Positions 1,405 to 49,716 of a stretch of DNA of 59,220 bases are shown in pieces. The notes beneath the pieces were generated by a model that was given only the letters and a program-made list of their open reading frames with translations, ran no database searches and had not been told where the DNA came from. This DNA comes from Hoeflea sp. (GTDB lineage: Bacteria > Pseudomonadota > Alphaproteobacteria > Rhizobiales > Rhizobiaceae). Location: the NCBI RefSeq assembly GCF_030682515.1, contig NZ_JAUXOD010000105.1:1-59220 (forward strand), given 5' to 3'. The translations under genes and the position numbers were made by a program. The number at the start of each line of letters is the position of its first letter. Within the stretch, counting starts at the first letter, position 1.

Positions 1405-2190
1405 TTACCGATAATCGCGTATTGCGGCCTGATCGAGCTTTGCAGCAGGTACGAGAAGATAGTGCTTTTCGTCCACAACTCTGATCTCGTCGTTTTGAAG
1501 CGTCAGTTCGAAAAGGGCAACCACTTGGTGATCCATAAACTGAGCAGCGATCGCACGGCAACGAAGTCCTGGGAACTTATCTTCCACGAACCTAATGTCC
1601 TGTGTTGTCTGGACGATACCGATCTGATCCTTTCCGCCCTTTGCCTGAACGGGGATCACGTAGTGACATCCTCGCTTGTCTAGGCCGATATACAATTCAT
1701 CTATCTCGATTTGCCCGATATCTGGGACGGTCGTCCGAAGATGGTTCTGAAGGCTGTATGTGGTCAGCCCCAGAAACGTGTCGATCAATCTATTGTAGCG
1801 AACTATCGCCAAGAGCGCCTGCTCGTCGTCCAGTGCATATGCCCGTATGAGTTCGGGTGTCGCGTCGGGTATGGCGATTTGGATCAGGGTCTCGCTAGGA
1901 ACAATTCTCGTCTCTTTGACCAATCGGAACCGATAGATGGCACGTCCAGCACCTTCTATGATCCATTCGAGCTTTTCTGGCTGGGTCGCCAGTATGCTAT
2001 CCGGAAGGACATTTCGGTATCGAAACGAATAGGGGACATCGCCGATATTCTTCACCCTTGCAAAACCGAGAGCTGCGGCACCGTCCTCCAATTCCTTCCT
2101 TTCGAATTGGAACTCGGTTGCACCTGGGACGTAGTGTGCAAAGAATATCCGTTCGATCAGTGCTTGGTAGCGGTTCGATTTCTTAGCCAT
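1405..2190 (-). CDS. Putative type II restriction endonuclease of the R-M operon
   Basis: A 261-residue protein, last gene of the leftward vsr-methyltransferase-endonuclease operon. The ATG at 2190 overlaps the methyltransferase stop by 8 bp; a longer frame exists but would run inside the methyltransferase. The C-terminal half has a PD-(D/E)xK-like arrangement: acidic residues in EIDELYIG, then VIPVQAKGGKD (a QxK ending) about 20 residues later, followed by a helix and strand. No close family can be named from sequence alone. Its position directly behind a C5 methyltransferase makes the cognate nuclease role likely. Specificity cannot be read from the sequence. Confidence 0.75.
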   Translation of the reverse strand: MAKKSNRYQALIERIFFAHYVPGATEFQFERKELEDGAAALGFARVKNIGDVPYSFRYRNVLPDSILATQPEKLEWIIEGAGRAIYRFRLVKETRIVPSETLIQIAIPDATPELIRAYALDDEQALLAIVRYNRLIDTFLGLTTYSLQNHLRTTVPDIGQIEIDELYIGLDKRGCHYVIPVQAKGGKDQIGIVQTTQDIRFVEDKFPGLRCRAIAAQFMDHQVVALFELTLQNDEIRVVDEKHYLLVPAAKLDQAAIRDYR

Positions 2191-3529
2191 TCGCAACACT
2201 TCGTTCCAAACGTTCGCGTTCGATATCGATCTGTTTGCGCTTCTTAGTTCCGCTTTTTGTGTTTCGCTTCGCGGATGGCGCGTCGACACCGAACAATGCG
2301 GCGGCTGACGCCAATGTCGTCGTCAAAAGCGATATCTCACCAAGTGACAGCGAACCTTCCGGTCGCACCGGTGAAACTCCTAGCGCCTTTAGCACGGAAC
2401 CCGCAATTGCTCGTGCCAACGGTGGCGGTACGGCATTTCCGATTTGCCTGGCCCCATGCCATTTTGTCGCGTGAAACCTAAACCAATCGGGGAATCCGTG
2501 CAGACGCGCCATCTCGCGGACGGTGATGCAGCGGTCATGCTCATAGTGGATTGGGCGAGGGCTGGTAAAGGCTCCGCGCGCTCCATCGGTGCCGGCCCTC
2601 AATGTGTTCGAGAGCCCGTTGGGTGGCAACTTGAACAAGCGACTAATCGGTTCCACTTTCCCAACCTGTGTTTCCGAGAAGCGTCGGCGCGAAATTTCCG
2701 TATGCTCAGTTCGGGCGCTGGACGTGAGAACCTGAGAATTCCATTTCCTAACATGACCAAAGTGCCAAGCATCATTGCTTGTAACTCGCATTTCGGCGGC
2801 AAATCGAGATGGTTCTCCGAAACGAGCGGTACGAACGGCATCGTCGTCGATCAGCGAAGAAAACATCTCTGCGTCGGGGAGATCGCCGATGGCATCGCGA
2901 ACAGTCGGACCGACAACAAGGTTAGGCATCTTTTTCTTACCGTCCGCAGGATTTGTAAGCGCCAGAGGATAGTCTGGGAGCACCTCACCTTTTCTACCAC
3001 CAAAAAGAATCAGACGTTGTCGGTGTTGGGGAACACCGAAATTAGCGGCATCCAGAACGTTCCAAGGCAAGCGGACCTGGTAACCGGCTGCATCAAACGC
3101 GTCGACGAGCTCCCCAAGAAACTTCTTGTGTTGGCCAAGGGTCAAGCCCTTAACATTTTCGAATACGAACGTGCGGGCATCCAGTTCCTTAACCAGACGA
3201 ACAAACTCCAGAACCAGAGAATTTCTGGGATCGTCCATGACTCGTTGGCCTATCATGGAAAATCCTTGGCATGGTGGTCCACCGAAGACGCAATCTATTT
3301 GCTTTCTGCCGATTCCTCCAGCCAACCGAATTTCCAGAGCCGAAAGTCCGACCACCGACTTCGGTATGACAGCCGTTTGAGGAAAGTTGAACTTATGAAT
3401 AGCACAATGAATGGGGTCTACCTCGACAGCGGCAGCGATATCAAAGCCCGCTTGCTCGAAGCCAAGGCTCATACCGCCCGCACCGGCGAACAAATCGATT
3501 CCGATAGGTCTGTCGTCCATCATGCTCAT
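2183..3529 (-). CDS. DNA (cytosine-5) methyltransferase, Dcm type
   Basis: A complete 448-residue C5 methyltransferase protecting the host genome in a type II R-M system. Motif I DLFAGAGGMSLG is near residue 13, catalytic GGPPCQGFS (motif IV) near 86, FENVKGL (VI), QHRQRLILFGG (VIII) and GNAVPPPLARAIA (X) near 380. The target-recognition region lies between VIII and X. I chose ATG 3529: it shares one base with the vsr stop (TGATG) and has GGAGA upstream. A TTG one codon earlier is possible. Translational coupling with vsr upstream and the nuclease downstream indicates one operon. Confidence 0.95.
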   Translation of the reverse strand: MSMMDDRPIGIDLFAGAGGMSLGFEQAGFDIAAAVEVDPIHCAIHKFNFPQTAVIPKSVVGLSALEIRLAGGIGRKQIDCVFGGPPCQGFSMIGQRVMDDPRNSLVLEFVRLVKELDARTFVFENVKGLTLGQHKKFLGELVDAFDAAGYQVRLPWNVLDAANFGVPQHRQRLILFGGRKGEVLPDYPLALTNPADGKKKMPNLVVGPTVRDAIGDLPDAEMFSSLIDDDAVRTARFGEPSRFAAEMRVTSNDAWHFGHVRKWNSQVLTSSARTEHTEISRRRFSETQVGKVEPISRLFKLPPNGLSNTLRAGTDGARGAFTSPRPIHYEHDRCITVREMARLHGFPDWFRFHATKWHGARQIGNAVPPPLARAIAGSVLKALGVSPVRPEGSLSLGEISLLTTTLASAAALFGVDAPSAKRNTKSGTKKRKQIDIERERLERSVANG

Positions 3530-35906: not shown

Positions 35907-36752
35907 CTACCGCCCCGGCGGATTGTTCCAGTGAATGTCCTCGAGCGTCTGCATGCGTGCCCTTGCCGCGTCGGACTGGGCGCGGGAGACGCGATCGATC
36001 AGCGCCTCGGCGAGCGCCAGTATGGCGACGCTCGAATCCCAGGTGCGGTTGGCGTCGACGACGCAAGGCAGCACCACGCGGGCCGAGCGGGCGATCGGCG
36101 ACAGCCACGGGTCGGTGATGAGCAGGATCCTGGCCTTGCGCTCGACCAGCAATTCACCGAGCCGGACGAGATCGGACTGGTAGCGGCGGATGTCGAACAG
36201 CACCGCGACGTCGCCGGGACGGACATCGAGCAACTGGTCGCGCCAGGTCGAGGTCTGCCCGTCAAAGTGCCGGACATTGGGACGGATGATCCTCAGATGC
36301 GCGGCCATGTAGGCGGCGATGGCGTCGGTGAACCGGCCGCCCAGGATATAGCAGGCCGTTTTCTGGTCGGACAGCAACTCGCAGGCCGCCTCGAACTCGC
36401 TTTCGGAAACGGCCTTTGCCGTGGCTTCGAGATTGGCGGCGATGTCGGCAAAGCTTGCCTTGAGCGCCGGGTTGTCGGTGAGCGGACCGGTCGAGCGGGC
36501 GCGCTCGAGCGGCGACATCAGCTGCGCCTGCACGTCGGCGCGCAGCATGCGCTGGAAATCGGGATAGGACTCAAACCCCAGCCGGGCGACGAAACGCAGC
36601 ACCGTCGGCGCCGAGGTTCCCGCCAGCGCCGCCAGTTCGGCGATCGTCGACAGGCCGATGCTCGGATAGTTGGCGAGAAAGGCGTGCGCCACCTTTTTTT
36701 CGGCGCCGGGCAGGGTGCCGAGTGCTGCCTGGATCTGTTCGCGTATCGCCAT
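35907..36752 (-). CDS. MurR/RpiR-family transcriptional regulator
   Basis: A 281-residue regulator. The N-terminal RpiR helix-turn-helix (STIAELAALAGTSAPTVLRF, residues about 37-56) is followed by a SIS domain (about 120-250) that normally binds a phosphosugar or other small ligand. ATG 36752 has AGGAGA upstream. It is divergent from the TRAP/ligase/dehydrogenase cluster and is its probable controller. A GTAA-TTAC dyad in the promoter region is a candidate operator. Confidence 0.9.
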   Translation of the reverse strand: MAIREQIQAALGTLPGAEKKVAHAFLANYPSIGLSTIAELAALAGTSAPTVLRFVARLGFESYPDFQRMLRADVQAQLMSPLERARSTGPLTDNPALKASFADIAANLEATAKAVSESEFEAACELLSDQKTACYILGGRFTDAIAAYMAAHLRIIRPNVRHFDGQTSTWRDQLLDVRPGDVAVLFDIRRYQSDLVRLGELLVERKARILLITDPWLSPIARSARVVLPCVVDANRTWDSSVAILALAEALIDRVSRAQSDAARARMQTLEDIHWNNPPGR

Positions 36753-36775: not shown

Positions 36776-36822
36776 GTAACAAAAATTACAGTATTGACAA
36801 TGACAGGGCAATCCTAATCAAT
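36776..36822 (+). promoter_or_regulatory. Promoter and candidate RpiR operator of the catabolic cluster
   Basis: TTGACA (36794-36799) and ATCAAT (36817-36822) are 17 bp apart and read toward the rightward cluster. Just upstream is the dyad GTAA-C-AAAAA-TTAC (36776-36789), and GTTAC recurs at 36824-36828. These flank the -35 and -10 elements, so a dimer or tetramer bound there would block the polymerase. Confidence 0.55.
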
Positions 36823-36873
36823 GTTACGAAAGCGGCGGATCCACGCCGCAACTGCCGGGGAGCAGACATCGAA

Positions 36874-37668
36874 GTGCTAGGCGACAGGCTGATTGATCCA
36901 TCAGAAGGTCCCGCGTTTGCCATTCGCCGACCCGGCGGGGCGAGCGAGGTGGTGCTGGTGTGCGAACATGCATCGAAGACCATGCCGAAGGCGCTCGGCA
37001 CCCTGGGGCTCGACCCGGCGGCGCTCGAAAGCCACATCGCCTGGGACATCGGCGCCATGGGCGTGGCCGAACGGCTGTCGGATCTTCTCGATGCAACGCT
37101 CATCTCGCAACGGTTCTCCCGGCTGGTCTATGACTGCAACCGCCCGCCGGAATCGGCCGACGCCTATCCGGAGCGAAGCGAAGTCTTCGACGTCCCTGGA
37201 AACAAGGGACTTGACCAGGCGGAGCGCTCGCGCCGCGCCGCGGCGCTGTATGTTCCATTTCATCAGGCCGTCGACACGATCATCGATGAGCGTCTGGCTG
37301 AGGGCCGCGACGTGGCGCTGGTGACGGTGCATTCCTTCACGCCGGTTTATTTCGGCCGGCCGCGCGACGGCTTTCTCGGCATCCTGCATGACGAGGACAG
37401 CCTGTTGGCCGATGCGATGCTTGACGCCGCCGCGGCCGCACGCATGGAGCGGGTCAGCAGGAACTATCCCTACGGCCCGCAGGATGGCGTGACGCACACG
37501 CTCAAGCGGCATGGATTGACCCGGCAAATCGCCAACGTCATGCTGGAGATCCGCAATGATCTCATTTCCGGCGAAGACGGGCAGATCGCCTGGGCCGGGC
37601 AGATAGCGGGGCTCCTGCGCGTGTCGCTGGACCGCCTGAACCATGAAGGAGGACGCCGTCATGCATGA
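36874..37668 (+). CDS. N-formylglutamate amidohydrolase family protein
   Basis: A 264-residue zinc amidohydrolase of the HutG/FGase family. VLVCEHASKTMPKAL has the metal-binding Glu and His, SRLVYDCNRPPESADAY the substrate arginines, and VALVTVHSFTPVY the second metal His. The family hydrolyses N-acylated glutamate. Here, first in a cluster with a glutamine-synthetase-like ligase and two dehydrogenases, it could release glutamate from a gamma-glutamyl intermediate. That is inference. The start is GTG 36874. No other hut gene is nearby, so a role in histidine degradation is less likely. Confidence 0.88.
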   Translation: MLGDRLIDPSEGPAFAIRRPGGASEVVLVCEHASKTMPKALGTLGLDPAALESHIAWDIGAMGVAERLSDLLDATLISQRFSRLVYDCNRPPESADAYPERSEVFDVPGNKGLDQAERSRRAAALYVPFHQAVDTIIDERLAEGRDVALVTVHSFTPVYFGRPRDGFLGILHDEDSLLADAMLDAAAAARMERVSRNYPYGPQDGVTHTLKRHGLTRQIANVMLEIRNDLISGEDGQIAWAGQIAGLLRVSLDRLNHEGGRRHA

Positions 37669-37761
37669 ACCCGCCATGCCGTCGGCCGGGAACTGTCCGG
37701 CGCCGAGGGACGGCCCGGTCTCGCGGCGCGTCTCAGCCCGCCGCGCGAAAGGCCGGACGGC

Positions 37762-38289
37762 ATGACCTTTCTCGAATCCTACATCCGGACCGTGGACGCC
37801 TTCAACAGGCGGGTCGGCCGGTTTGCGATGTATCTCATCTTTGCCCTGATGGGCGTGCTGTTCTGGTCGTCGATCACGAAATATGCCGGCTCGCCGGCGC
37901 TGTGGACGCTGGAATTCGCCCAGTTCATCATGGTCGCCTATTATCTGCTCGGGGGTCCCTATTCCATGCAGATGGGCGATCACGTGCGGATGGACCTGGT
38001 CTATGGCACCTGGTCGCCGCGCCGCAAGGCGGCGATCGACGCGGTCACGGTCCTGTTCCTGATCTTCTATCTCTGCGTCCTGCTCTATGGCGGGATATCG
38101 AGCACGACCTACGCCATCGAATACAGCGAGCGGGCCCACTCGGTCTGGCGGCCCTACATGTGGCCGGTCAAGCTGATCGCGGCCATCGGCATCTTCCTGA
38201 TGCTGCTTCAGGCTCTGGCCGAACTCTTCCGCGACATCCTTTTCCTGCGCGGCATCAGCGTCAACCATCAAAGCGAGGCAGGCATTTGA
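37762..38289 (+). CDS. TRAP transporter small permease (DctQ)
   Basis: A 175-residue protein with four membrane helices, the Q subunit of a tripartite ATP-independent periplasmic transporter. Family features are FWSSITKYAGSPALWTLEFA near residue 34 and GGPYSMQMGDHVRMDL before helix 3. Its stop overlaps the TTG start of the M subunit. The transporter is driven by an ion gradient and fed by the DctP protein encoded two genes later. Confidence 0.93.
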   Translation: MTFLESYIRTVDAFNRRVGRFAMYLIFALMGVLFWSSITKYAGSPALWTLEFAQFIMVAYYLLGGPYSMQMGDHVRMDLVYGTWSPRRKAAIDAVTVLFLIFYLCVLLYGGISSTTYAIEYSERAHSVWRPYMWPVKLIAAIGIFLMLLQALAELFRDILFLRGISVNHQSEAGI

Positions 38290-39620
38290 GTTACGAAATG
38301 ATCGCGCTCTTCATGTTCGCCTCGATGATGGCGCTGCTTCTGACCGGGCAGCGCGTGTTCGGCGTCATCGGCGCTGTTGCGGTGATCTTCGCGCTGCCGC
38401 TCTGGGGCACCGGCGGTGTGGAGATCGCGTTTGCGCAATCGATCAAGCTGATGAAATGGTATCCGCTGCTGACGCTGCCGATGTTCATCTTCATGGGCTA
38501 CATGCTGTCGGAAAGCCGGATCGCCGACGATCTGTACCGCATGTTCCACGTCTGGTTCGGCCCGGTTCCTGGCGGGCTCGCCATCGGCACGATCTTTCTG
38601 ATGGTGGTGATTTCGGCGATGAACGGCCTTTCGGTCGCGGGCATGGCCATCGGGGCGACGATCGCCTTGCCCGAACTGCTCCGGCGCGGCTACGACAAGC
38701 TGATGATCACCGGAGTGGTGCAGGGAGGTGCGTCCCTGGGGATCCTGATCCCGCCCTCGGTGGTGCTGGTGCTCTATGGCATGATCGCCCGCCAACCGGT
38801 GAGCCAGCTCTGGCTGGCCGGAGTGTTCCCCGGGCTGTTGATGGCAACCCTGTTCATCGTCTACATCGCCGTTCGCTGCCAGTTGCAGCCGCATCTCGGG
38901 CCGCCGCTTCCAAAGGCGGAGCGCGATGCGATTTCCTGGAAAGAGCGGATCAGCCTGCTCAGGGCAGGCATCCTGCCGTTCATGATCTTTTTCCTGATGA
39001 ACGGGCTTTTCCTGATGGGCTATACGAGCCTGGTGGAAAGTTCGGCGGTGGGGGCGCTCTCCTCGATGGCCGCGGCCCTGATCAAGGGCCGGCTGTCACG
39101 CGAGGTGATGGAAAACGTCATGCGGAAGACGCTCGGGATTTCCTGCATGTTCATGTGGATCATCCTCGCAGCGCTTTGTTTCGGGGCGGTGTTCGATGGT
39201 CTGGGCGCGGTACGCGCGATCGAAACCTTCTTCATCGGGCAGCTTGGCCTCGAGCCCTGGCACGTGCTCATCCTGATGCAGCTCAGCTTCCTGCTGATGG
39301 GAACTTTTCTCGACGACACGGCCATGCTGGTGATCGTGGCGCCGCTCTATGTGCCGCTGGTCAAGCTACTCGGCTTTGACCTCGTCTGGTACGGGATCCT
39401 CTACACCATCACCTGCCAGATCGCTTACATGACGCCACCCTTCGGCTACAACCTGTTCCTGATGCGCGCCATGGCCCCGCCGGAAATCAAGCTGCGTCAC
39501 ATCTATCTGTCCGTCATTCCCTTCGTCGCGATCATGCTGCTCACTCTTGTGATCGTGATGATGTTCCCGCAGCTGGCCTTGTGGCTGCCGCAGCATTTCC
39601 AGGGCAAGCTTCAAGGCTGA
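38286..39620 (+). CDS. TRAP transporter large permease (DctM)
   Basis: A 444-residue protein with about 12 membrane helices, the transport channel of the TRAP system. Characteristic segments are GQRVFGVIGAVAVIFALPLW, LPMFIFMGYMLSESRIADDL, SAMNGLSVAGMAIGATIALP and GGASLGILIPPSVVLVLYGM. TTG 38286 overlaps the DctQ stop by four bases and gives the N-terminus M-SYEMIALFMF that I regard as usual for the family; ATG 38298 is the alternative. Confidence 0.93.
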   Translation: MSYEMIALFMFASMMALLLTGQRVFGVIGAVAVIFALPLWGTGGVEIAFAQSIKLMKWYPLLTLPMFIFMGYMLSESRIADDLYRMFHVWFGPVPGGLAIGTIFLMVVISAMNGLSVAGMAIGATIALPELLRRGYDKLMITGVVQGGASLGILIPPSVVLVLYGMIARQPVSQLWLAGVFPGLLMATLFIVYIAVRCQLQPHLGPPLPKAERDAISWKERISLLRAGILPFMIFFLMNGLFLMGYTSLVESSAVGALSSMAAALIKGRLSREVMENVMRKTLGISCMFMWIILAALCFGAVFDGLGAVRAIETFFIGQLGLEPWHVLILMQLSFLLMGTFLDDTAMLVIVAPLYVPLVKLLGFDLVWYGILYTITCQIAYMTPPFGYNLFLMRAMAPPEIKLRHIYLSVIPFVAIMLLTLVIVMMFPQLALWLPQHFQGKLQG

Positions 39621-39663
39621 AACGAGCAGGTCCACAGAAGACGAAACCAAAAAGGAGAACAGC

Positions 39664-40716
39664 ATGACCAATATCAAGAGGCGCCAATTTCTCACCAAGG
39701 CCGGTGTAGCCGCCGGCGCGGCTGCCGGGACTGCGCTCGCCGCGCCGCCGGTGCTTGCCCAGGAGCCGATCCGCTGGCGCATGCAGACCTATGCTGGGGC
39801 GACGCTCGGACAGTTCGTCACCCAGCCCTTCGTCGACGCCTTCAACAAGGCCGCCAATGGCGAAATGGTGATCGAGCTGTTCTTTGCCGACCAGATCGTG
39901 CCGACCGGCGAGTTGTTCCGCGCCATGCAGGCCGGAACCATCGACGCCGTGCATTCGGACGATGACTCGATGGCGTCGCCGGTGGAAGTCGGCCTGTTCG
40001 GCGGCTATTTCCCCTTCGCCACCCGCTCGATCCTCGACGTGCCGGTGCTGTTCCAGCAGTACGGACTCGCCGATATCTGGCGCGAGGCCTATTCCGGAAC
40101 CGGCGTGGTCTGGCTGTCGGCGGCGGGCCAGGACCCGTGCAACTTCAACACCAAGAAGGAAATCACCAGCGTGGCCGATCTCAACGGCCTCAAGCTCTAC
40201 ACCTTTCCGACCGCAGGCCGCTTCCTCACGCAGTTCGGCGTGGTGCCGGTGTCCATCCCCTATGAAGACGCGGAAGTCGCGGTCCAGACCGGCGAGCTTG
40301 ACGGCATGTCCTGGTCGGGCATCACCGAGGACTACACGGTCGGCTGGGCCGATGTGACCGACTACTTCCTCACCAACAACATCTCCGGCGCCTGGATCGG
40401 TTCCTGGTTCGCCAACGAGGCAAAGTGGAACGCGGTGCCCGAGCACCTGAAGGCGCTCTACATGTCGTGCATGGAAGCCAGCCACACCTTCCGCAACCAG
40501 TGGTACTGGGGCGGCGAGGCCAAGCTGCGCGCCACCGGCGACAAGCTGCAGCTGCGCACCGTTCCCGCGGCGGAATGGAAGCAGGTCGAAGATGCAGCAG
40601 TGAAGTTCTGGGATGAAATTGCCGCGGAGAGCGAAACCAAGGCAAAGGTCATCGAGATCTTCAAGGAATACAACGGCGTCATCAACAAGGCCGGCTTCCC
40701 CTACGGCGAAAGCTGA
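39664..40716 (+). CDS. TRAP transporter substrate-binding protein (DctP), Tat-exported
   Basis: A 350-residue periplasmic binding protein. The N-terminus NIKRRQFLTKAGVAAGAAAG, ending at AQ near residue 33, is a twin-arginine signal, so it is probably exported folded. The mature part has the DctP fold (DGMSWSGITEDYTVGW near residue 220). The family's Arg ligand for carboxylates is expected near TFPTAGRFLTQFGVVPVSIP (residues about 181-200). The substrate cannot be read directly. Genomic partners suggest an amine, amino alcohol or amino acid. A GGAG-type site precedes the start. Confidence 0.92.
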   Translation: MTNIKRRQFLTKAGVAAGAAAGTALAAPPVLAQEPIRWRMQTYAGATLGQFVTQPFVDAFNKAANGEMVIELFFADQIVPTGELFRAMQAGTIDAVHSDDDSMASPVEVGLFGGYFPFATRSILDVPVLFQQYGLADIWREAYSGTGVVWLSAAGQDPCNFNTKKEITSVADLNGLKLYTFPTAGRFLTQFGVVPVSIPYEDAEVAVQTGELDGMSWSGITEDYTVGWADVTDYFLTNNISGAWIGSWFANEAKWNAVPEHLKALYMSCMEASHTFRNQWYWGGEAKLRATGDKLQLRTVPAAEWKQVEDAAVKFWDEIAAESETKAKVIEIFKEYNGVINKAGFPYGES

Positions 40717-40900
40717 GCCCGGTCATGACCACCTCTTCCGCCTCCCGGCCTTGCGTCGGGGGGCGAATTGGCACTACAGCGCTGCGGGAGGCTTTCGCCT
40801 GTGGCCGCCGCCGCTGCCAGAGTTCCAGGACGAACGACCCTTCGTCTTGCCGAAGTCTACTCTCAATCGCTGACCACAACACCATCGGGACCCTATCGAC

Positions 40901-42265
40901 ATGGCCGGAAATCTTAGCTTTGATGACCTGAAAACTGCCGGTAAATCCGGTGCCATCGACACCGTGCTGGTGTGCTGCGTCGACATGCAGGGCCGCCTGA
41001 TGGGCAAGCGGTTCCATGTGCAGAACTTCATCGACTCGAGTCATGAAGAAACCCATTGCTGCAATTACATGCTGGCGACCGACCTCGAGATGGCGACGCC
41101 GGACGGCTATGCGACCACCAGCTGGCGCGCCGGCTATGGCGACTATGTGATGAAGCCCGATCTCTCGACCCTGCGCCGCGTGCCGTGGCTCGAGGGGACG
41201 GCGATGGTTCTGTGCGATCTTCTCGATCACAAGACCCACCAGCCGGTGCCGCAATCACCACGGCAGATCCTCAAGACCCAGATCGCCCGGCTGAAGGAAC
41301 TGGGCTACGAGGCGATGATGGCGACCGAGCTCGAGTTCTTCCTGTTCGAGCAGAGCTATCGCGATCTCGCCCGCTCGGGCTACCGCGAGCTGACGCCGAT
41401 CAGCGCCTACAACGAGGATTACCATATCCTGCAGACCACCAAGGAAGAGGTGATCATGCGCCCGGTGCGCAATCATCTGTTCGCGGCGGGCATTCCGATC
41501 GAGAACTCCAAGGGCGAGGCGGAGACCGGCCAGGAGGAGCTCAACATCCGTTACGCCGAGGCGCTCGACTGCGCTGACCACCACACCATCGCCAAGCATG
41601 CGGTCAAGGAAATCGCCTGGGCCAACGGCCGCTCGGCAACGTTCCTGCCGAAATGGCATCCCAACAAGGTGGGCTCGTCCTCGCATGTGCACATGTCGCT
41701 GTGGCAGGGCAAGACGCCGGCCTTCCGCGATCCGGACGCCGAGTATGGCATGTCAGAGCTGATGCGGCATTTCATGGCCGGGCTGATCGAGTATGCGTCG
41801 GACTACACCTGGTTCATGGCGCCCTATGTCAACAGCTACAAGCGCTTCATGAAGGGCACGTTCGCGCCGACCCGCACGGTCTGGTCGGTGGACAACCGCA
41901 CCGCAGGGTTCCGCCTGTGCGGCGAGGGCACCAAGGGAGTCCGGGTCGAATGCCGCATCGGCGGCTCGGACATGAACCCCTATCTGGCGCAGGCGGCCCT
42001 GCTTGCCGCCGGCATCAAGGGGATCGAGCAGAAGCTGGAACTGGCGGCGCCGACCACGGGCGACGTGTACCAGAATGCCGAGGCCAAGCACATTCCCTCG
42101 ACGCTGCGCGCCTCGACCGAGACGCTGCGCAATTCCAAGATGCTGCGCGAGGCGATGGGCGACGCGGTGATCGACCATTATGTGCGCTGCGCGGAATGGG
42201 AGCAGGAGGAATTCGACAAGGCGGTCACCGACTGGGAAATCGCGCGCGGGTTTGAGCGGGTTTGA
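40901..42265 (+). CDS. Glutamine synthetase family protein, probable gamma-glutamyl-amine ligase
   Basis: A 454-residue class-I GS-fold enzyme. N-terminal beta-grasp: VLVCCVDMQGRLMGKRF. The catalytic domain has ATELEFFLFE (metal-binding Glu), GQEELNIRYAEALDCADHHT, GSSSHVHMSLW and FAPTRTVWSVDNRTAGFRLC with RVECRIGGSDMNPYLA. The adenylylation-tyrosine loop of GlnA is not evident. Relatives include GlnT and PuuA-like ligases. With an ALDH and an Fe-alcohol dehydrogenase next to it, ligation of glutamate to an external amine is likelier than ammonia assimilation. A 184-bp gap before it may hold an extra promoter. Confidence 0.85.
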   Translation: MAGNLSFDDLKTAGKSGAIDTVLVCCVDMQGRLMGKRFHVQNFIDSSHEETHCCNYMLATDLEMATPDGYATTSWRAGYGDYVMKPDLSTLRRVPWLEGTAMVLCDLLDHKTHQPVPQSPRQILKTQIARLKELGYEAMMATELEFFLFEQSYRDLARSGYRELTPISAYNEDYHILQTTKEEVIMRPVRNHLFAAGIPIENSKGEAETGQEELNIRYAEALDCADHHTIAKHAVKEIAWANGRSATFLPKWHPNKVGSSSHVHMSLWQGKTPAFRDPDAEYGMSELMRHFMAGLIEYASDYTWFMAPYVNSYKRFMKGTFAPTRTVWSVDNRTAGFRLCGEGTKGVRVECRIGGSDMNPYLAQAALLAAGIKGIEQKLELAAPTTGDVYQNAEAKHIPSTLRASTETLRNSKMLREAMGDAVIDHYVRCAEWEQEEFDKAVTDWEIARGFERV

Positions 42266-42267
42266 AC

Positions 42268-42447
42268 ATGGTTACAGACCCTAAGCTGCCCCCAAAATAT
42301 GGCGAAGTCCCGGAGGAGGCTGGATCTGCCGCGAAACGTCCGACCTACTTCGACGCCATGCATGGCACTCTGAAGATTGATCCAAGTCTCGACTTGACCC
42401 AACCGCCCGACCCGGAATGGGGCAAGGTGTATGAAGATGAGAAGTAA
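42268..42447 (+). CDS. Small hypothetical protein in the ligase/dehydrogenase cluster
   Basis: A 59-residue acidic, proline-rich protein (KLPPKYGEVPEEAGSAAKRP, then MHGTLKIDPSLDLTQPPDPE). ATG 42268 lies 3 bp after the ligase stop; a TTG at 42262 would overlap that stop. No family is certain. The MHGTLK...D segment faintly recalls DUF2281/VapB-type antitoxin tails, but no toxin is adjacent. Its position between ligase and ALDH suggests an accessory to the cluster. Normal codon use supports a real gene. Confidence 0.55.
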   Translation: MVTDPKLPPKYGEVPEEAGSAAKRPTYFDAMHGTLKIDPSLDLTQPPDPEWGKVYEDEK

Positions 42448-42559
42448 TTACCCGACAGCCCGTGAACGCGACCTGACCATCGTAACCCGGGACCGGGCCA
42501 TCCTTACGTATGGCGCGCTCGGGCACGTCAAGACTCTCCCCTGCTGACTGGAAGAAAAA

Positions 42560-43951
42560 ATGACCACCACACTGAAATGCATATCTCCCATCGACGGCTC
42601 GGTCTATGCCGAGCGGCCGGTGCTGGCCCTTGACACTGCAGCCGCGGCCGTGGCGCGTTCGCGCAAGGCCCAGAAGGACTGGGCCCGGCGTCCGCTGGAA
42701 GAGCGCATCGCGCTGGTCCGCGCCGGCGTCGCCCGGCTCAACGAGATGAAGGACGAGGTCGTGCCGGAACTGGCCTGGCTGATGGGCCGTCCGGTGCGCT
42801 ATGGCGGCGAGTTCGGAGGCATGAACGAACGCACCAATTACATGGCCGATATCGCCGCGCGCGCTCTGGCGCCGATCGAGATCGAGACATCGGCGCAGTT
42901 CGAGCGCCGCGTCGAGCGCGTGCCGCACGGCGTCGTCTTCGTCGTCGCGCCCTGGAACTACCCCTACATGACGGCGATCAACACGGTGGTCCCGGCGCTC
43001 ATCGCCGGAAACACCGTGGTGCTCAAGCACGCCACGCAGACGCTTTTGGTGGGCGAGCGCATGGCGCGGGCCTTCCTGGAGGCCGGACTGCCGGAAGACG
43101 TGTTCATCAACCTGTTCCTCGATCATCAGGGCACCGAGAAGCTCATCTCTGCGGGCAGCTTCAACTTCGTCAATTTCACCGGCTCGGTGGGCGGCGGCAA
43201 GGCGATCGAACGCGCGGCTGCCGGCACCTTCACCGGCCTCGGGCTCGAGCTTGGCGGCAAGGATCCGGGCTATGTCATGGACGACGCCGACCTCGACTGG
43301 GCGGTCGACGTGCTGATGGACGGCGCCATGTACAATGCCGGCCAGTGCTGCTGCGGCATCGAGCGGCTCTATGTCGCCCGGCCACTCTACGACGCCTTTG
43401 TCGAGAAGGCAGCGGCCTGGGTCAATTCCGGGCTCCGGCTCGGCAATCCGCTCGATCCCGACACCACGATCGGCCCGATGGCCAATGTGCGGTTCGCCGC
43501 GGAAGTCCGGGCGCAGACGGCCGAAGCGCTGGCCAGCGGCGCGCGCGCCCTCATTGATCCCAAGCTGTTTCCTGCCGATGATGGCGGCGCCTATCTGATG
43601 CCGCAGATCCTGGTCGATGTAACCCACGACATGCGGGTGATGCGCGACGAGAGCTTCGGCCCGGTCGTGGGCATCATGCCGGTCGACAGCGACGAGGAAG
43701 CGCTGGCCCTCATGAATGACTGCCAGTTCGGCCTGACCGCATCCTTGTGGACCAAGGATGCCGAGCGGGCGGCACGGATCGGCGCGGAGATCGAAACCGG
43801 AACGGTGTTCATGAACCGGGCCGATTATCTCGATCCGGCGCTGTGCTGGACCGGCTGCAAGGCCACCGGCCGCGGCGGCTCGCTGTCCGAAATCGGCTTC
43901 CACAATCTCACCCGTCCAAAATCCTATCACCTGAGAAAGAAATCCGCATGA
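42560..43951 (+). CDS. NAD(P)-dependent aldehyde dehydrogenase
   Basis: A 463-residue ALDH-superfamily enzyme oxidising an aldehyde to an acid. The catalytic cysteine is in AGQCCCGIER, with three adjacent cysteines near residue 262, and the general-base Glu in GLELGGKDPGYV. FVVAPWNYPYMTAINTVVPA and NFTGSVGGGKAIE form the cofactor site. Its stop overlaps the start of the iron alcohol dehydrogenase (ATGA), so the two steps, alcohol to aldehyde to acid, are co-translated. The substrate is presumably a gamma-glutamylated amino aldehyde. Confidence 0.92.
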   Translation: MTTTLKCISPIDGSVYAERPVLALDTAAAAVARSRKAQKDWARRPLEERIALVRAGVARLNEMKDEVVPELAWLMGRPVRYGGEFGGMNERTNYMADIAARALAPIEIETSAQFERRVERVPHGVVFVVAPWNYPYMTAINTVVPALIAGNTVVLKHATQTLLVGERMARAFLEAGLPEDVFINLFLDHQGTEKLISAGSFNFVNFTGSVGGGKAIERAAAGTFTGLGLELGGKDPGYVMDDADLDWAVDVLMDGAMYNAGQCCCGIERLYVARPLYDAFVEKAAAWVNSGLRLGNPLDPDTTIGPMANVRFAAEVRAQTAEALASGARALIDPKLFPADDGGAYLMPQILVDVTHDMRVMRDESFGPVVGIMPVDSDEEALALMNDCQFGLTASLWTKDAERAARIGAEIETGTVFMNRADYLDPALCWTGCKATGRGGSLSEIGFHNLTRPKSYHLRKKSA

Positions 43952-45093
43952 GCCCGCGCGCCAACTGGTCCTATCCCACCGCAATCCGTTTTGGCGCCGG
44001 CCGCGTCTCGGAGCTTGCCGAAGCCTGCCTGACCGCGGGCATCAAGCTGCCGCTTCTGGTCACCGACCGGGGGCTGGCCTCGCTGCCGATCACCGCGCAG
44101 GCGCTCGACATTCTCGATGCTGCGGGTCTTGGGCGCGCCATGTTCTCCGAGGTCGATCCGAACCCCAACGAGAAGAACCTCGAGGCGGGCGTGGCGGCCT
44201 TCAAGGCCGGCGGTCACGACGGCGTCATCGCCTTCGGCGGCGGTTCCGGCCTCGACCTCGGCAAGCTGATCGCGTTCCAGGCCGGACAGACGCGCCCGGT
44301 GTGGGATTTCGAGGATATCGGCGACTGGTGGACCCGCGCCGACGCCAAGGCGATCGCGCCGATCATCGCCGTGCCGACCACGGCGGGCACCGGTTCGGAA
44401 GTCGGCCGCGCCGGCGTGCTCACCAACTCGGTCACCCACGTCAAGAAGATCATCTTCCACCCGAAGCTGCTTCCGGCGATCACGATCTGCGATCCGGAAC
44501 TCACCGTCGGCATGCCGCGGATCATCACGGTCGGCACCGGCATGGATGCGTTTGCCCATTGCCTGGAGGCCTATTCATCGCCGTTCTACCATCCGATGAG
44601 CCAGGGCATCGCGCTCGAGGGCATGCGGCTGGTGAAGGACAACCTGCCGCTGGTGGTGGCCGACGGGTCCAACATCGCGGCGCGCGCCGAGATGATGAGC
44701 GCGGCCGCAATGGGCGCGGTGGCGTTCCAGAAGGGACTGGGCGCCATTCACGCCCTGTCGCATCCGGTGGGCGCCGTCTACAACACCCATCACGGCATGA
44801 CCAATGCGGTGGTGATGCCGCCGGTGCTCAGATTGAACAGGCCCGAGATCGAGGAACGTATCGCGCGCGCCGCGGACTACATGGGAATCGGCGGCGGCTT
44901 CGACGGGTTCTATGACTTCGTCCTCAAGCTGCGTGCCGATCTCGGGGTCCCCGACAAGCTGGCGGAGCTGGGCGTCGGGCGCGACCGGATCGACGAGATG
45001 ACCGCCATGGCGCTGGAAGACCCCAGCGCCGGGGGCAATCCGGTCAAGATGACCCCGGAGAACACCCGGGCCCTTTTCGAAGCCTGTATCTGA
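43948..45093 (+). CDS. Iron-containing (group III) alcohol dehydrogenase
   Basis: A 381-residue enzyme oxidising an alcohol with NAD(P). The N-terminal Rossmann-like domain has AFGGGSGLDLGKLIAFQ. The metal-binding domain shows GTGMDAFAHCLEAYSSPFYH and GAIHALSHPVGAVYNTHHGM, containing the Asp and three His ligands. It is the last gene of the cluster and coupled to the ALDH by an ATGA overlap. A perfect 17-bp hairpin lies 53 bp past its stop. It plausibly makes the aldehyde used by the ALDH. Confidence 0.92.
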   Translation: MSPRANWSYPTAIRFGAGRVSELAEACLTAGIKLPLLVTDRGLASLPITAQALDILDAAGLGRAMFSEVDPNPNEKNLEAGVAAFKAGGHDGVIAFGGGSGLDLGKLIAFQAGQTRPVWDFEDIGDWWTRADAKAIAPIIAVPTTAGTGSEVGRAGVLTNSVTHVKKIIFHPKLLPAITICDPELTVGMPRIITVGTGMDAFAHCLEAYSSPFYHPMSQGIALEGMRLVKDNLPLVVADGSNIAARAEMMSAAAMGAVAFQKGLGAIHALSHPVGAVYNTHHGMTNAVVMPPVLRLNRPEIEERIARAADYMGIGGGFDGFYDFVLKLRADLGVPDKLAELGVGRDRIDEMTAMALEDPSAGGNPVKMTPENTRALFEACI

Positions 45094-45146
45094 AGCCAAT
45101 CCCCGGGGTGATTGCAGTCAGCAATCATGGCCGGTCGGGCAGATCC

Positions 45147-45185
45147 TGAAAGCCGGTGCACAAAGGATGTGCACCGGCTTTCAGC
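45147..45185 (+). terminator. Perfect 17-bp stem hairpin closing the catabolic cluster
   Basis: CTGAAAGCCGGTGCACA (45147-45163), loop AAGGA, then TGTGCACCGGCTTTCAG (45169-45185) pair without mismatch. No U-run follows (CGTTCTCG), so it may stabilise mRNA 3' ends or terminate with Rho rather than act as a classic terminator. Confidence 0.7.
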
Positions 45186-45347
45186 GTTCTCGCGCTGCGA
45201 CAACCCGGCTCCGGCATCCGTCTTCGGATTGCGGAATTACTTTTTACAACTGAAGGATTAGGCGTTACACTGCGCAACCGGGCCTGTGCTTTCCGTTGAA
45301 TATTGCCGCCTTTTGGATAAGGCGGACCGGGTGCGAAGGGGGAAACG

Positions 45348-46091
45348 ATGAACATGCATGCGGTTCTGCAGTTCCTGGATGCCGAGAGAGATGCGAAGGA
45401 CAGCGCCGACGCCATCCGCGCGGAGCTTTCGGATGTGATCGGCGCCCTCGGCTTTGACTATTTCACCCTTGTCCGGCAGCCCGGTCCGGAAAGCGACGCG
45501 AACGGCTTGATGCTGGCCGGGCAATGGCCGAAGGGCTGGCCCGAGCTCTATGTGAAGCGGAAATATGCCGCCATCGATCCGATCATCCGCTATCTCGGCC
45601 ACAGCCAGCGGGGCTATCGCTGGGCGGAGCCGATGCTGGCCTTTGCCCAGGACCCGCAACACAAGCGCATGGAACGGATGATGGTCGATGCGCGGCGCTA
45701 TGGTCTGGAGGACGGCTACGTCTTTCCGGTCCACGGGCGGCGCGGGCTGGTTGGCGTTCTCTCCGTGGCGGGCCGGGCGGTCGAGCTGTCGCGGTCGGAA
45801 ATCTCGATGATGGATGCGCTCGCCAAGAAGGCGTTCTGGGATATTCTGCGGGTGCTGGATCCGGCCGCCCATGAGCGGATCGCCCGACCGGTCGCAGTCC
45901 AGATGACCCGCCGCGAGCTGGAGACGCTGGAATATCTCGGCTATGGGATGACATCCAACGAGATGGGCGCGACGCTCGGGCTCTCGGCGCACACGGTCGA
46001 CTGGTACATGAACGGCATCCAGGAGAAACTCCATGCCAAGAACCGCCACCATGTGGTGGCGATCGCCTTCAGGCTGGGCCTGATCTCCTGA
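45348..46091 (+). CDS. LuxR-family regulator with autoinducer-binding domain (solo)
   Basis: A 247-residue quorum-sensing type regulator. The N-terminal autoinducer-binding domain (residues about 20-165) has YVKRKYAAIDPIIRYLGHSQ, then RGYRWAEP, matching the Tyr/Asp-Pro/Trp pattern of TraR/LuxR ligand pockets. The C-terminal helix-turn-helix is MTRRELETLEYLGYGMTSNE, then MGATLGLSAHTVDWYMNGIQ with EKLHAKNRHHVV. No luxI synthase is in the window, so it is an apparent solo sensing self-made or foreign acyl-homoserine lactones. Targets are unknown. Confidence 0.9.
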   Translation: MNMHAVLQFLDAERDAKDSADAIRAELSDVIGALGFDYFTLVRQPGPESDANGLMLAGQWPKGWPELYVKRKYAAIDPIIRYLGHSQRGYRWAEPMLAFAQDPQHKRMERMMVDARRYGLEDGYVFPVHGRRGLVGVLSVAGRAVELSRSEISMMDALAKKAFWDILRVLDPAAHERIARPVAVQMTRRELETLEYLGYGMTSNEMGATLGLSAHTVDWYMNGIQEKLHAKNRHHVVAIAFRLGLIS

Positions 46092-46257
46092 TGAGGCCTG
46101 CGCGACCGGAGCGGGCGGCAAGGCGCGCGACGATCCGGCTCCACGGTTTTGACCGGACCCGCGCCGCTCTATTTGCACTGCAGCAAAACAGACGCTAATG
46201 ATTGAGGCCGGGGTTTTTCATGCCCCGTTCCCTTCGCCCAAACCCGGGAGCCTGTCT

Positions 46258-49200
46258 GTGACGATTTCCAAGATTCTTGTCGCCAACCGGTCAGAAATTG
46301 CCATCCGCGTGTTCCGTGCCGCCAATGAACTTGGCATGAAAACCGTCGCCATCTGGGCCGAGGAAGACAAACTCGCGCTGCACCGGTTCAAGGCGGACGA
46401 ATCCTACCAGGTCGGCCGCGGGCCTCACCTGGCGCGCGATCTCGGGCCGATCGAAAGCTATCTGTCGATCGACGAGGTGATCCGGGTGGCAAAGCTGTCG
46501 GGCGCCGACGCGATCCATCCCGGCTACGGGCTGCTGTCGGAAAGCCCGGAGTTTGCCGACGCCTGCGCCGAGCACGGCATCATCTTCATCGGGCCCCGGC
46601 CCGACACCATGCGCAGGCTGGGCAACAAGGTCGCCGCGCGCAACCTCGCCATCGAGATCGGCGTGCCGGTCGTGCCCGCCACCGAGCCGCTCCCCGACGA
46701 CATGAAGGAAGTCGCCCGCATGGCGGAGGAGATCGGCTATCCGGTCATGCTCAAGGCCTCCTGGGGCGGCGGCGGACGCGGCATGCGCGCCATCCGCGAC
46801 CCGAAGGACCTGGCGCGCGAAGTGATCGAGGCCAAACGCGAGGCCATGGCCGCCTTCGGTAAGGACGAGGTCTATCTCGAGAAGCTGGTGGAACGGGCGC
46901 GCCATGTCGAAAGCCAGATTCTCGGCGACACCCATGGCAACGCCGTGCATCTGTTCGAACGCGACTGCTCGGTGCAGCGCCGCAACCAGAAGGTCGTCGA
47001 GCGCGCGCCCGCGCCGTACCTCACTGAAGCCCAGCGCGAGGAACTGGCGGCCTATTCGCTCAAGATCGCCAACGCCACCAGCTATGTCGGCGCCGGCACG
47101 GTCGAATATCTGATGGATATCGATACCGGTGCCTTCTACTTCATCGAGGTCAATCCGCGCATCCAGGTCGAGCACACGGTGACCGAGGAAGTGACCGGCA
47201 TCGACATCGTCAAGGCGCAGATCCATATCCTCGAAGGTGCTGTGATCGGAACCCCGGAATCGGGCATTCCGGCACAGGCCGATATCAAGCTCAACGGCCA
47301 TGCGCTGCAGTGCCGCATCACCACCGAGGATCCGGAGCAGAATTTCATTCCCGATTATGGCCGCATCACCGCCTATCGCGGCGCCACCGGCTTCGGAATC
47401 AGGCTGGACGGCGGCACCGCCTATTCCGGCGCGGTGATCACACGCTTCTACGATCCGCTGCTCGAGAAGGTGACGGCCTGGGCGCCGACGCCCGAGGAGA
47501 CGATCCGCCGGATGGACCGGGCCTTGCGCGAGTTCCGGATCCGCGGCGTCGCCACCAATCTCACGTTCCTCGAAGCCATCATCGGGCACCCGGAGTTTCG
47601 TAACAACACCTACACGACGCGGTTCATCGACACCACGCCGGAGCTGTTCGAACAGGTCAAGCGCCAGGACCGCGCCACCAAGCTGCTCACCTACCTGGCC
47701 GACGTCACGGTCAACGGCCATCCGGAAACCAAGGGTCGGCCGCTGCCCGCGGAAGATGCGGCGGCGCCCAAGGTTCCCTTCGTCGAGGGTGACATCAAGC
47801 CGGGCACGCGGCAGTTGCTCGATGAGCTTGGGCCGGAAGGGTTCGCCAAGTGGATGCGGGCGCAAAAGCGGGTGCTGATCACCGACACGACGATGCGCGA
47901 CGGCCACCAGTCGCTGCTCGCCACGCGGATGCGCACCCACGATATCGCATCGATCGCGGACACCTACGCAAAGGCGCTGCCGGACCTGCTGTCGCTGGAA
48001 TGCTGGGGCGGGGCGACCTTCGACGTGTCGATGCGGTTTTTGACCGAGGATCCTTGGGAGCGGCTCGAGCTGGTGCGCCAGGGCGCGCCCAACCTGCTGC
48101 TGCAGATGCTGCTGCGGGGCGCCAATGGCGTGGGCTACAAGAATTATCCCGACAATGTGGTCAGGCACTTCGTCCGCCAGGCGGCCCAGGGCGGGATCGA
48201 TCTGTTCCGGGTGTTCGACTGTCTCAACTGGGTCGAGAACATGCGGGTGTCGATGGATGCGGTGCGCGAGGAGAACAAGCTCTGCGAGGCCACCATCTGC
48301 TACACCGGCGACATCCTGAATTCCGCCCGGCCGAAATACGACCTCAAATATTACACCGGACTCGCCACTGAACTTGAAAAGGCCGGCGCGCACATCATCG
48401 CGGTCAAGGACATGGCCGGGCTCTTGAAGCCCGCGGCGGCGCGGCAGCTATTCAAGGCGTTGCGCGAATCGACCGATCTGCCAATCCATTTCCATACCCA
48501 TGACACCTCGGGGATTTCAGCGGCGACCGTGCTTGCTGCCGTCGACAGCGGCGTGGATGCGGTGGACGCGGCGATGGATTCGCTGTCGGGCAACACCTCG
48601 CAGCCGTGCCTGGGCTCGATCGTCGAGGCGCTCAAGGGCCATGAACGCGATCCCGGCCTCGATACCGAGTGGATCCGACGGATTTCGTTCTATTGGGAAG
48701 CGGTGCGCAACCAGTACGCCGCCTTCGAAAGCGATCTCAAGGGGCCGGCGTCCGAGGTCTACCTGCACGAGATGCCTGGCGGGCAGTTCACCAATCTCAA
48801 GGAGCAGGCCCGCTCGCTGGGGTTAGAGACCCGCTGGCATGAAGTGGCGCAGGCCTATGCCGACGCCAACAAGATGTTCGGCGATATCGTCAAGGTGACG
48901 CCGTCTTCCAAGGTGGTGGGCGACATGGCACTGATGATGGTCAGCCAGGATCTGAGCGTCGCCGATGTCGAAAACCCGTTGAAGGACGTCTCCTTCCCCG
49001 AATCCGTGGTCTCGATGATGCGCGGCGACCTCGGCCAGCCGCCGGCGGGCTGGCCCGAGGCGCTGCAGCGCAAGGTGCTCAAGGGCGAGGACGCCTATAC
49101 CGCCCGCCCCGGCTCGCTGCTGCCCGATGCGGACCTTGAGGCCGAGCGCGCCGAGATCGAGGCCAAGCTCGAGCGCAAGATCAGCGAGAACGAGTTCGCC

Positions 49201-49716
49201 TCGTACCTCATGTATCCGAAGGTGTTCACTGATTTCGCGCTGGCAATCGAAACCTACGGTCCCGTCAGCATGCTGCCGACGCCCGCCTATTTCTATGGGA
49301 TCCCGGTCGGCGGGGAGCTGTTCATCGAAATCGAGAAGGGCAAGACGCTGGTGGTCCAGAACCTCGCCCAGGGCGAACCCGACGACAAGGGCATGGTGAC
49401 AGTGTTCTTCGAGCTCAACGGCCAGCCGCGTCGCGTCAAGGTGCCGGACCGGGCGCATGGCGCATCGGGGTCGGCCGCGCGGCGCAAGGCCGAAATCGGC
49501 AACGAGGCCCATGTCGCAGCCCCCATGCCCGGCGTGATCTCGACGGTCGCGGTCGCCCAGGGCCAGGAGGTCAAGGCGGGCGACGTGCTGGTGTCGATCG
49601 AGGCCATGAAGATGGAAACCGCGATCCATGCCGAGCGGGACGGAACGCTGGCCGAGGTCCTGGTCAAGACCGGCGACCAGATCGACGCCAAGGATCTGCT
49701 CGTGGTCTATGGCTGA
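46258..49716 (+). CDS. pyc: Pyruvate carboxylase
   Basis: A 1152-residue biotin enzyme that makes oxaloacetate from pyruvate and bicarbonate, replenishing the TCA cycle. In order: biotin-carboxylase domain (ILVANRSEIAIRVFRAANEL, KASWGGGGRGMR, HLFERDCSVQRRNQKVVERA), carboxyltransferase TIM barrel (LITDTTMRDGHQSLLATRMR, VFDCLNWVENM, FHTHDTSG), PYC tetramerisation region, and a biotinyl domain with the lysine in IEAMKMETAIHAE. GTG 46258 (GGGAG 7 bp upstream) gives the usual rhizobial N-terminus and length; the ATG at 46198 adds 20 unlikely residues. Confidence 0.97.
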   Translation: MTISKILVANRSEIAIRVFRAANELGMKTVAIWAEEDKLALHRFKADESYQVGRGPHLARDLGPIESYLSIDEVIRVAKLSGADAIHPGYGLLSESPEFADACAEHGIIFIGPRPDTMRRLGNKVAARNLAIEIGVPVVPATEPLPDDMKEVARMAEEIGYPVMLKASWGGGGRGMRAIRDPKDLAREVIEAKREAMAAFGKDEVYLEKLVERARHVESQILGDTHGNAVHLFERDCSVQRRNQKVVERAPAPYLTEAQREELAAYSLKIANATSYVGAGTVEYLMDIDTGAFYFIEVNPRIQVEHTVTEEVTGIDIVKAQIHILEGAVIGTPESGIPAQADIKLNGHALQCRITTEDPEQNFIPDYGRITAYRGATGFGIRLDGGTAYSGAVITRFYDPLLEKVTAWAPTPEETIRRMDRALREFRIRGVATNLTFLEAIIGHPEFRNNTYTTRFIDTTPELFEQVKRQDRATKLLTYLADVTVNGHPETKGRPLPAEDAAAPKVPFVEGDIKPGTRQLLDELGPEGFAKWMRAQKRVLITDTTMRDGHQSLLATRMRTHDIASIADTYAKALPDLLSLECWGGATFDVSMRFLTEDPWERLELVRQGAPNLLLQMLLRGANGVGYKNYPDNVVRHFVRQAAQGGIDLFRVFDCLNWVENMRVSMDAVREENKLCEATICYTGDILNSARPKYDLKYYTGLATELEKAGAHIIAVKDMAGLLKPAAARQLFKALRESTDLPIHFHTHDTSGISAATVLAAVDSGVDAVDAAMDSLSGNTSQPCLGSIVEALKGHERDPGLDTEWIRRISFYWEAVRNQYAAFESDLKGPASEVYLHEMPGGQFTNLKEQARSLGLETRWHEVAQAYADANKMFGDIVKVTPSSKVVGDMALMMVSQDLSVADVENPLKDVSFPESVVSMMRGDLGQPPAGWPEALQRKVLKGEDAYTARPGSLLPDADLEAERAEIEAKLERKISENEFASYLMYPKVFTDFALAIETYGPVSMLPTPAYFYGIPVGGELFIEIEKGKTLVVQNLAQGEPDDKGMVTVFFELNGQPRRVKVPDRAHGASGSAARRKAEIGNEAHVAAPMPGVISTVAVAQGQEVKAGDVLVSIEAMKMETAIHAERDGTLAEVLVKTGDQIDAKDLLVVYG

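Follow-up and report, generated by a model that had tools for sequence, protein, structure and literature searches.

A predicted ethanolamine-utilisation operon of a Hoeflea-like alphaproteobacterium and a recurrent toxin-antitoxin slot at its ligase-aldehyde dehydrogenase junction

Introduction

The eto operon of Phaeobacter sp. MED193 (MED193_10021-10056) encodes an RpiR regulator, a gamma-glutamylglycine amidohydrolase (GGAH), the proteins EtoV, EtoW and EtoX, an ethanolamine gamma-glutamylase (ETAGA), a gamma-glutamylacetaldehyde dehydrogenase (GAADDH) and a gamma-glutamylethanolamide dehydrogenase (GETADH) (PMC10132767). Five operon proteins are upregulated on phosphorylethanolamine, EtoX also without phosphate, and EtoX binds ethanolamine with a Kd of 7.9 µM (PMC10132767). 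Here we describe an operon of this type at positions 36776-45185 of a 59,220-nucleotide stretch of contig NZ_JAUXOD010000105.1, from the chromosome of a Hoeflea-like marine alphaproteobacterium. The whole stretch is called the window, and coordinates are window positions unless a locus is named. Between the ligase and aldehyde dehydrogenase (ALDH) genes of the operon lies a 59-residue open reading frame (ORF) that, judged by similarity, is the relic of a toxin-antitoxin module, at a site where such modules recur among relatives.

The MED193 genes are called close relatives of a demonstrated ethanolamine pathway of C. salexigens and A. tumefaciens C58, with reference to Vetting 2015 (PMC10132767). 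Elsewhere an FGase-family enzyme is proposed as the gamma-glutamylglycine amidohydrolase, and the C. salexigens pathway is termed a prediction (PMC6529630). The GlnA4 route of Streptomyces coelicolor, likened to ours by description, has a gamma-glutamylethanolamide synthetase, two proposed oxidations and a proposed FGase-family hydrolase, SCO1615; no TRAP uptake is named in that part of the source (PMC6529630). For the TRAP receptor Csal_0678 there is a crystal structure in complex with ethanolamine (4UAB), in which Glu220 is the platform residue (PMC12410723); the protein is described as lacking the arginine that holds carboxylates in TRAP receptors (PMC4646407).

An eto-type operon in the window

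The window operon has the gene order of MED193, and by gene set and order it belongs with the eto-type operons. It differs in carrying a toxin-antitoxin relic, set between its ETAGA and GAADDH genes; the MED193 gene list, in the part of the paper cited, names nothing there. The gene list of the original prediction, made from the letters alone, stands as given: RpiR, FGase, the three TRAP genes, ligase, 59-residue ORF, ALDH and Fe-alcohol dehydrogenase (Fe-ADH). It had proposed that an amino alcohol is imported, glutamylated, oxidised twice and released by the FGase-family enzyme. This chemistry fits the ethanolamine pathway published for orthologous operons, but neither the claimed novelty nor the membership of the 59-residue protein survives. 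TRAP uptake joined to an FGase as releasing hydrolase is not a new combination, because the operon of PMC10132767 and the FGase proposal of PMC6529630 already cover it.

The conservation of gene order exceeds chance. The eight genes were expected to co-occur in relatives, and 68 of the 80 ligase-anchored loci carry all of them, in the same order and on the same strand; RpiR is divergent ahead of FGase in 72 of the 80. EtoX is present in 100 of 199 family genomes, our own included. Of 28 EtoX-anchored loci fetched whole, taken down the ranking and not at random, 19 are complete; the other 71 were covered from DctP onward. A weak control is provided by seven 2-4 kb stretches at the genome's other ligase-family matches (L001, L003-L008): RpiR and FGase relatives occur only beside L007, and none of the stretches has TRAP, ALDH or Fe-ADH relatives.

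The receptor DctP (EtoX) bears on the substrate. It is 66% identical across 315 residues to the chain of entries 4uab and 4xf5, that is, to the TRAP receptor of the Csal_0678 cluster, which has ethanolamine as its ligand. That cluster is also likened to ours by a related ligase, 5dm3, which we take to belong to C. salexigens. In the column of the carboxylate-binding arginine, the window DctP has Tyr179, against Arg in 16/16 other DctP proteins of the same genome: it is the sole one of the 17 without this residue, and falls outside the carboxylate-binding TRAP receptors. Its Glu222, likely the equivalent of Glu220 in Csal_0678, is kept in 72/72 related loci. With an acidic platform residue, if this equivalence is right, and no carboxylate arginine, the protein has the features of an eto-type receptor. 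A search for EutB (PF06751) gave no match in the genome (98.86% complete), with a positive E. coli control, which makes this operon probably the genome's ethanolamine route.

The locus is very probably an ethanolamine-utilisation operon of the eto type, serving uptake, glutamylation, two oxidations and the release of glycine and glutamate. The genes and their order, the likeness to the published operon, the residues of the receptor site and the absence of EutB are observed here, whereas we infer the substrate, the reactions with their order, and the regulation. The TRAP transporter and its receptor would import ethanolamine, which the glutamine synthetase (GS)-fold ligase would couple to the gamma-carboxyl group of glutamate, using ATP. 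The Fe-ADH would oxidise the alcohol to the aldehyde, the ALDH would convert the aldehyde to gamma-glutamylglycine, and the FGase-family amidohydrolase would cleave the latter to glycine and glutamate. RpiR would control the divergent promoter region.

Some points count against this assignment. The C. salexigens pathway is demonstrated according to PMC10132767 and predicted according to PMC6529630, in the parts cited. Twelve of the 80 ligase-anchored loci are incomplete (L078 and L083, among these, on short contigs), and five of the 28 EtoX-anchored loci (L137, L138, L139, L141, L142) show TRAP genes but none of the pathway enzymes nearby, within the stretch fetched. The equivalence of Glu222 and Glu220 is likely rather than read directly from the alignment, because Glu222 falls opposite position 217 in the listed chain. 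Finally, the same chemistry could act mainly on another amino alcohol, for example (S)-2-amino-1-propanol, the last intermediate then being gamma-glutamylalanine. The chain matched by the receptor also occurs in entry 4xf5, presumably an aminopropanol complex, and another ethanolamine receptor, unrelated to this one, accepts L-alaninol and serinol as well (PMC12410723). In the published ortholog, however, the response of the set is to phosphorylethanolamine, and the ligand of EtoX is ethanolamine (PMC10132767), and another main substrate seems unlikely to us.

The 59-residue ORF is a relic

The ligase-ALDH junctions of the Hoeflea loci L013 and L014 span 919 and 1004 nt, respectively, and hold a DUF7662 gene with a PIN gene behind it. 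These relatives have the sequence features of a type II PIN module: a PIN domain (L013, L014), the catalytic acids and an adjoining antitoxin-like gene. The window copy falls short of a complete module: all that is left is the ORF for an antitoxin tail and 30 codons of the toxin. The 59-residue ORF, which has no Pfam match, is similar to the antitoxin tails of L013 and L014, and from 42455 on the window DNA shows 89% identity to L013 across 166 bases. On this similarity the ORF is the relic of a toxin-antitoxin module, with no part in the pathway chemistry.

The original prediction had counted the ORF as a pathway member, and we rejected it as such on the antitoxin-tail similarity, the lack of a Pfam match and the junctions of relatives. 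It might still encode a small protein at work in the pathway or in its regulation: the frame is open and begins 2 nt past the ligase stop, its tail is still recognisable, and locus L191 also keeps an antitoxin-tail ORF at this junction. Against this, the ORF is absent from 73 of 75 ligase-anchored junctions, which also have no module, the exceptions L013 and L014 carry the whole module, and a PIN gene fragment lies directly behind the ORF. We regard a function of this kind as quite improbable, and retain the ORF as a relic.

The L191 junction (791 nt) contains a 74-residue ORF with an antitoxin-like tail, then a DUF1697 gene. By its sequence, L191 is a second decayed or replaced module at the ligase-ALDH junction, and the window and L191 together point to decay.

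A recurrent slot for toxin-antitoxin modules

Ligase and ALDH stand together in 78 EtoX-anchored family loci. Their junction is at least 200 nt long in 13 of these, and 11 of the 13 contain a PIN gene on the operon strand. No PIN gene was found, on either strand, at the other junctions (FGase-DctQ 0/20, DctQ-DctM 0/27, DctM-DctP 0/27, DctP-ligase 0/23, ALDH-FeADH 0/77); other insertions of at least 200 nt occur at DctP-ligase in 1/23 and at ALDH-FeADH in 6/77. Among the ligase-anchored loci with both genes, a PIN gene is present in 2/75 (L013 and L014).

Used as a query against the 199 family genomes, the L013 toxin gave 32 matches in 29 genomes, 11 of them the EtoX-anchored slot cases. Twenty of the other 21 were fetched: 10 lie between ligase and ALDH, in stretches without TRAP genes of the window type, and 10 elsewhere. 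The slot PIN gene is thus found in 21/199 family genomes, from 16 genera, the ligase being present in 146; the matches lean towards slot toxins because the query toxin itself came from the slot.

The slot extends beyond the family. In the order sample a PIN gene of this kind occurs in 35/397 genomes, and 30 of the loci were fetched with flanks of about 1.5 kb. Eleven of these have ligase-PIN-ALDH and one, L248, has ligase-PIN-FeADH, while 18 show no operon inside the flanks. The 11 include eight from five other families, and L248 comes from a sixth, so that the slot is found in six families in all, or seven counting L248, which has no ALDH there. In the class sample 19/385 genomes matched, with 0/19 beside operon genes.

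Six loci (L019, L020, L034, L035, L050, L066) have ligase-ALDH insertions of 364-375 nt, with a VOC/glyoxalase-like ORF of about 125 residues. We rejected these as toxin-antitoxin modules on account of the VOC-like ORFs, confirmed by Pfam for L019 and L050.

The modules are arranged alike in 22 loci. Taking the earliest ATG or GTG as its start, the antitoxin-like gene begins 15-87 nt past the ligase stop, and it ends between -15 and +22 nt of the start of the toxin match in 22/22. The toxin stop lies 11-37 nt ahead of ALDH in these loci; in L220 the distance is 114 nt. The 22 antitoxin-like genes share a common tail and have differing fronts: a string test classed 12 as DUF7662-like, 8 as HTH-like and 2 as neither. 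Pfam searches with six of them gave DUF7662 for L013, L014 and L120, and HTH domains for L132, L158 and L211. In the slot toxins, four of five acids are kept in 33/33 and the fifth, Asp99, in 32/33; we take the five to be the PIN catalytic residues.

A Pfam search for DUF7662 in the 199 genomes is independent of the operon, although the domain was first noticed at the slot. It returned 14 matches over the cut-off, and a fifteenth below it. By coordinates, 11/14 lie directly behind a ligase gene and 14/14 adjoin a PIN match of the L013 toxin search. DUF7662-PIN modules outside the ethanolamine operon were seen in L216 (4721-5604) and L226 (5252-6077), the former just upstream of an ORF that by eye resembles dnaG.

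Among known systems, the slot modules resemble the VapBC-type PIN modules: in the intact slot relatives, too, a PIN protein has an antitoxin-like gene as its neighbour. They differ in that the slot toxins fall far below the NCBIfam VapC cut-offs, that DUF7662 has no function assigned in Pfam, and that the modules recur inside one catabolic operon. We found no report of the slot in a literature search whose coverage of subscription papers was poor, nor any paper naming DUF7662 or joining toxin-antitoxin, ethanolamine, operon and PIN domain. The slot is apparently new; the pathway itself is of a known kind.

History of the slot

In a tree of 32 PIN proteins, 22 slot toxins and 3 others form one group (support 99) that excludes the remaining 7. 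Mapped on a ligase tree of 96 rows, module presence requires 14 changes or more, of which starred branches force 8, against a mean of 20 for shuffled labels; these counts are not frequencies, because clusters without TRAP genes were added to the ligase tree solely as carriers. L145, L117 and L148 were left out of the PIN and ligase trees, their contigs being equal in length to those of L013, L016 and L017.

Three congeneric pairs, picked after the trees were seen, were tested. A clear result came from two of them, in both of which the toxins are non-sisters: L123/L162 (approximately unbiased (AU) test, p 2.6e-9) and L153/L204 (AU p 6e-4), and for these two we reject vertical co-inheritance of toxin and operon. 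The ligases of both pairs are sisters in a 22-row ligase tree (support 99 and 97, respectively); L153/L204 does not resolve in the 96-row tree. With non-sister toxins beside sister ligases, replacement or re-acquisition of modules at a single site is very probable.

Ligase and amidohydrolase identity

Glutamylation in the PuuA and Ipu pathways shields the amine while oxidation proceeds. The window operon is like them in the predicted glutamylation of an amine, though its ligase misses the PuuA cut-off. The nearest solved structure for the ligase is 5dm3 (725 bits); that for the FGase is 2odf (Atu2144, 287 bits). Against the NCBIfam models, the ligase scores 256.8 bits for GlnA (cut-off 429.15), 246.5 for type III GS (469.6) and 216.5 for PuuA, the gamma-glutamylputrescine synthetase (650), and the FGase 23.8 bits for HutG, the N-formylglutamate deformylase (278.75). 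All four scores lie below the curated cut-offs, and we rejected membership in each of these families. The ligase lacks the string NLYDLP, which in GlnA is the adenylylation motif; the original prediction had noted no evident adenylylation loop. A cluster for ammonia or polyamines, built round a glutamine synthetase or a putrescine/diamine ligase, is hardly credible: the ligase belongs to PF00120 and does match the GlnA, type III GS and gamma-glutamylputrescine synthetase models, but far under their cut-offs, and the neighbouring receptor resembles an ethanolamine receptor.

The control locus L007 is part of a second cluster in the same genome, L113 (contig C102, 2215-14257). This cluster encodes a distant GS-fold ligase, RpiR, FGase, an isochorismatase-family hydrolase, ALDH, an FAA-hydrolase-like protein, FmdA/AmdA and branched-chain-type ABC ATPases, and possibly represents another glutamylation route. 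In L217, a cluster without TRAP genes, a 515-residue ORF between FGase and ligase (1827-3374) looks by eye like an APC-type permease, perhaps an alternative importer for the same enzymes.

Gene layout and regulatory region

The features are listed in Table 1. A divergent RpiR is present as the original prediction had it, but its gene lies outside the interval 36776-45185 given there. Coupling by ATGA holds for ALDH/Fe-ADH (43948-43951); the DctQ/DctM overlap is TTGA (38286-38289), and overlap is not general, with gaps of 93 nt between FGase and DctQ, 184 nt between DctP and the ligase, and 112 nt between the 59-residue ORF and ALDH.

Table 1 Features of the window operon and its surroundings.
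Feature	Position	Strand	Basis or remark
RpiR-family regulator (HTH_6 and SIS), divergent	35907..36752	-	Pfam
GTAACAAAAATTAC, candidate RpiR operator	36776..36789		strand not assigned; putative role
TTGACA, candidate -35 box	36794..36799	+	conserved in intergenic alignment; not reported by promoter scan
CTAATCAATGTTAC, putative inverted near-copy of GTAACAAAAATTAC	36814..36827		strand not assigned
FGase-family amidohydrolase, predicted GGAH	36874..37668	+	PF05013
DctQ/EtoV, TRAP small permease	37762..38289	+	PF04290
DctM/EtoW, TRAP large permease	38286..39620	+	PF06808; start TTG at 38286 or ATG at 38298
DctP/EtoX, TRAP receptor, predicted ethanolamine binder	39664..40716	+	
GS-fold ligase (Gln-synt_C), predicted ETAGA	40901..42265	+	PF00120
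59-residue ORF, putative antitoxin tail of decayed toxin-antitoxin module	42268..42447	+	resembles L013 and L014 antitoxin tails
PIN toxin gene fragment, final 30 codons	42455..42547	+	similarity to L013
ALDH (Aldedh), predicted GAADDH	42560..43951	+	PF00171
Fe-ADH, predicted GETADH	43948..45093	+	PF00465/PF25137
Strong hairpin downstream of operon	45145..45184	+	without T tract

In the region between RpiR and FGase, GTAACAAAAATTAC is a candidate RpiR operator. The strict palindrome GTAA-N4..8-TTAC occurs in 10/11 Hoeflea-group regions against 0/62 other intergenic regions. With at most one mismatch, GTAAYARAAATTAC has one match in the genome, which means little because a backwards control pattern also matches once.

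The hairpin announced at the end of the operon is real and strong: folding over 45140-45200 gives -36.8 kcal/mol (z -6.5), with 0/200 shuffles equally stable. It is no T-tailed terminator, for it has no T tract and the terminator scan did not list it. Further downstream (45348-49716) lie a LuxR-type autoinducer-binding regulator and a pyruvate carboxylase-like gene, both present in all 10 Hoeflea/Pseudohoeflea loci (L009-L018).

Discussion

The module may guard the operon, serve it or merely occupy a safe site. A more specific scheme can be put forward, speculative and rather doubtful as a whole. There would be one toxin-antitoxin lineage, with a DUF7662 or HTH antitoxin, a shared tail and a PIN toxin, whose main home in the order would be the ligase-ALDH junction. 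It would be exchanged between species and act as an addiction element that makes operon loss costly. The 59-residue ORF and the L191 tail ORF would be kept toxin-binding tails, shielding the host after module loss or against re-entry, and DUF7662 would be the DNA-binding domain of the antitoxin.

As to the pathway, this is very probably how a marine alphaproteobacterium that has no EutB makes use of ethanolamine. The slot may matter more than the pathway: it gives DUF7662 a first testable role, and its lineage, now present, now replaced, decayed or absent, offers a natural series in which to ask whether chromosomal metabolic operons are guarded by addiction modules.

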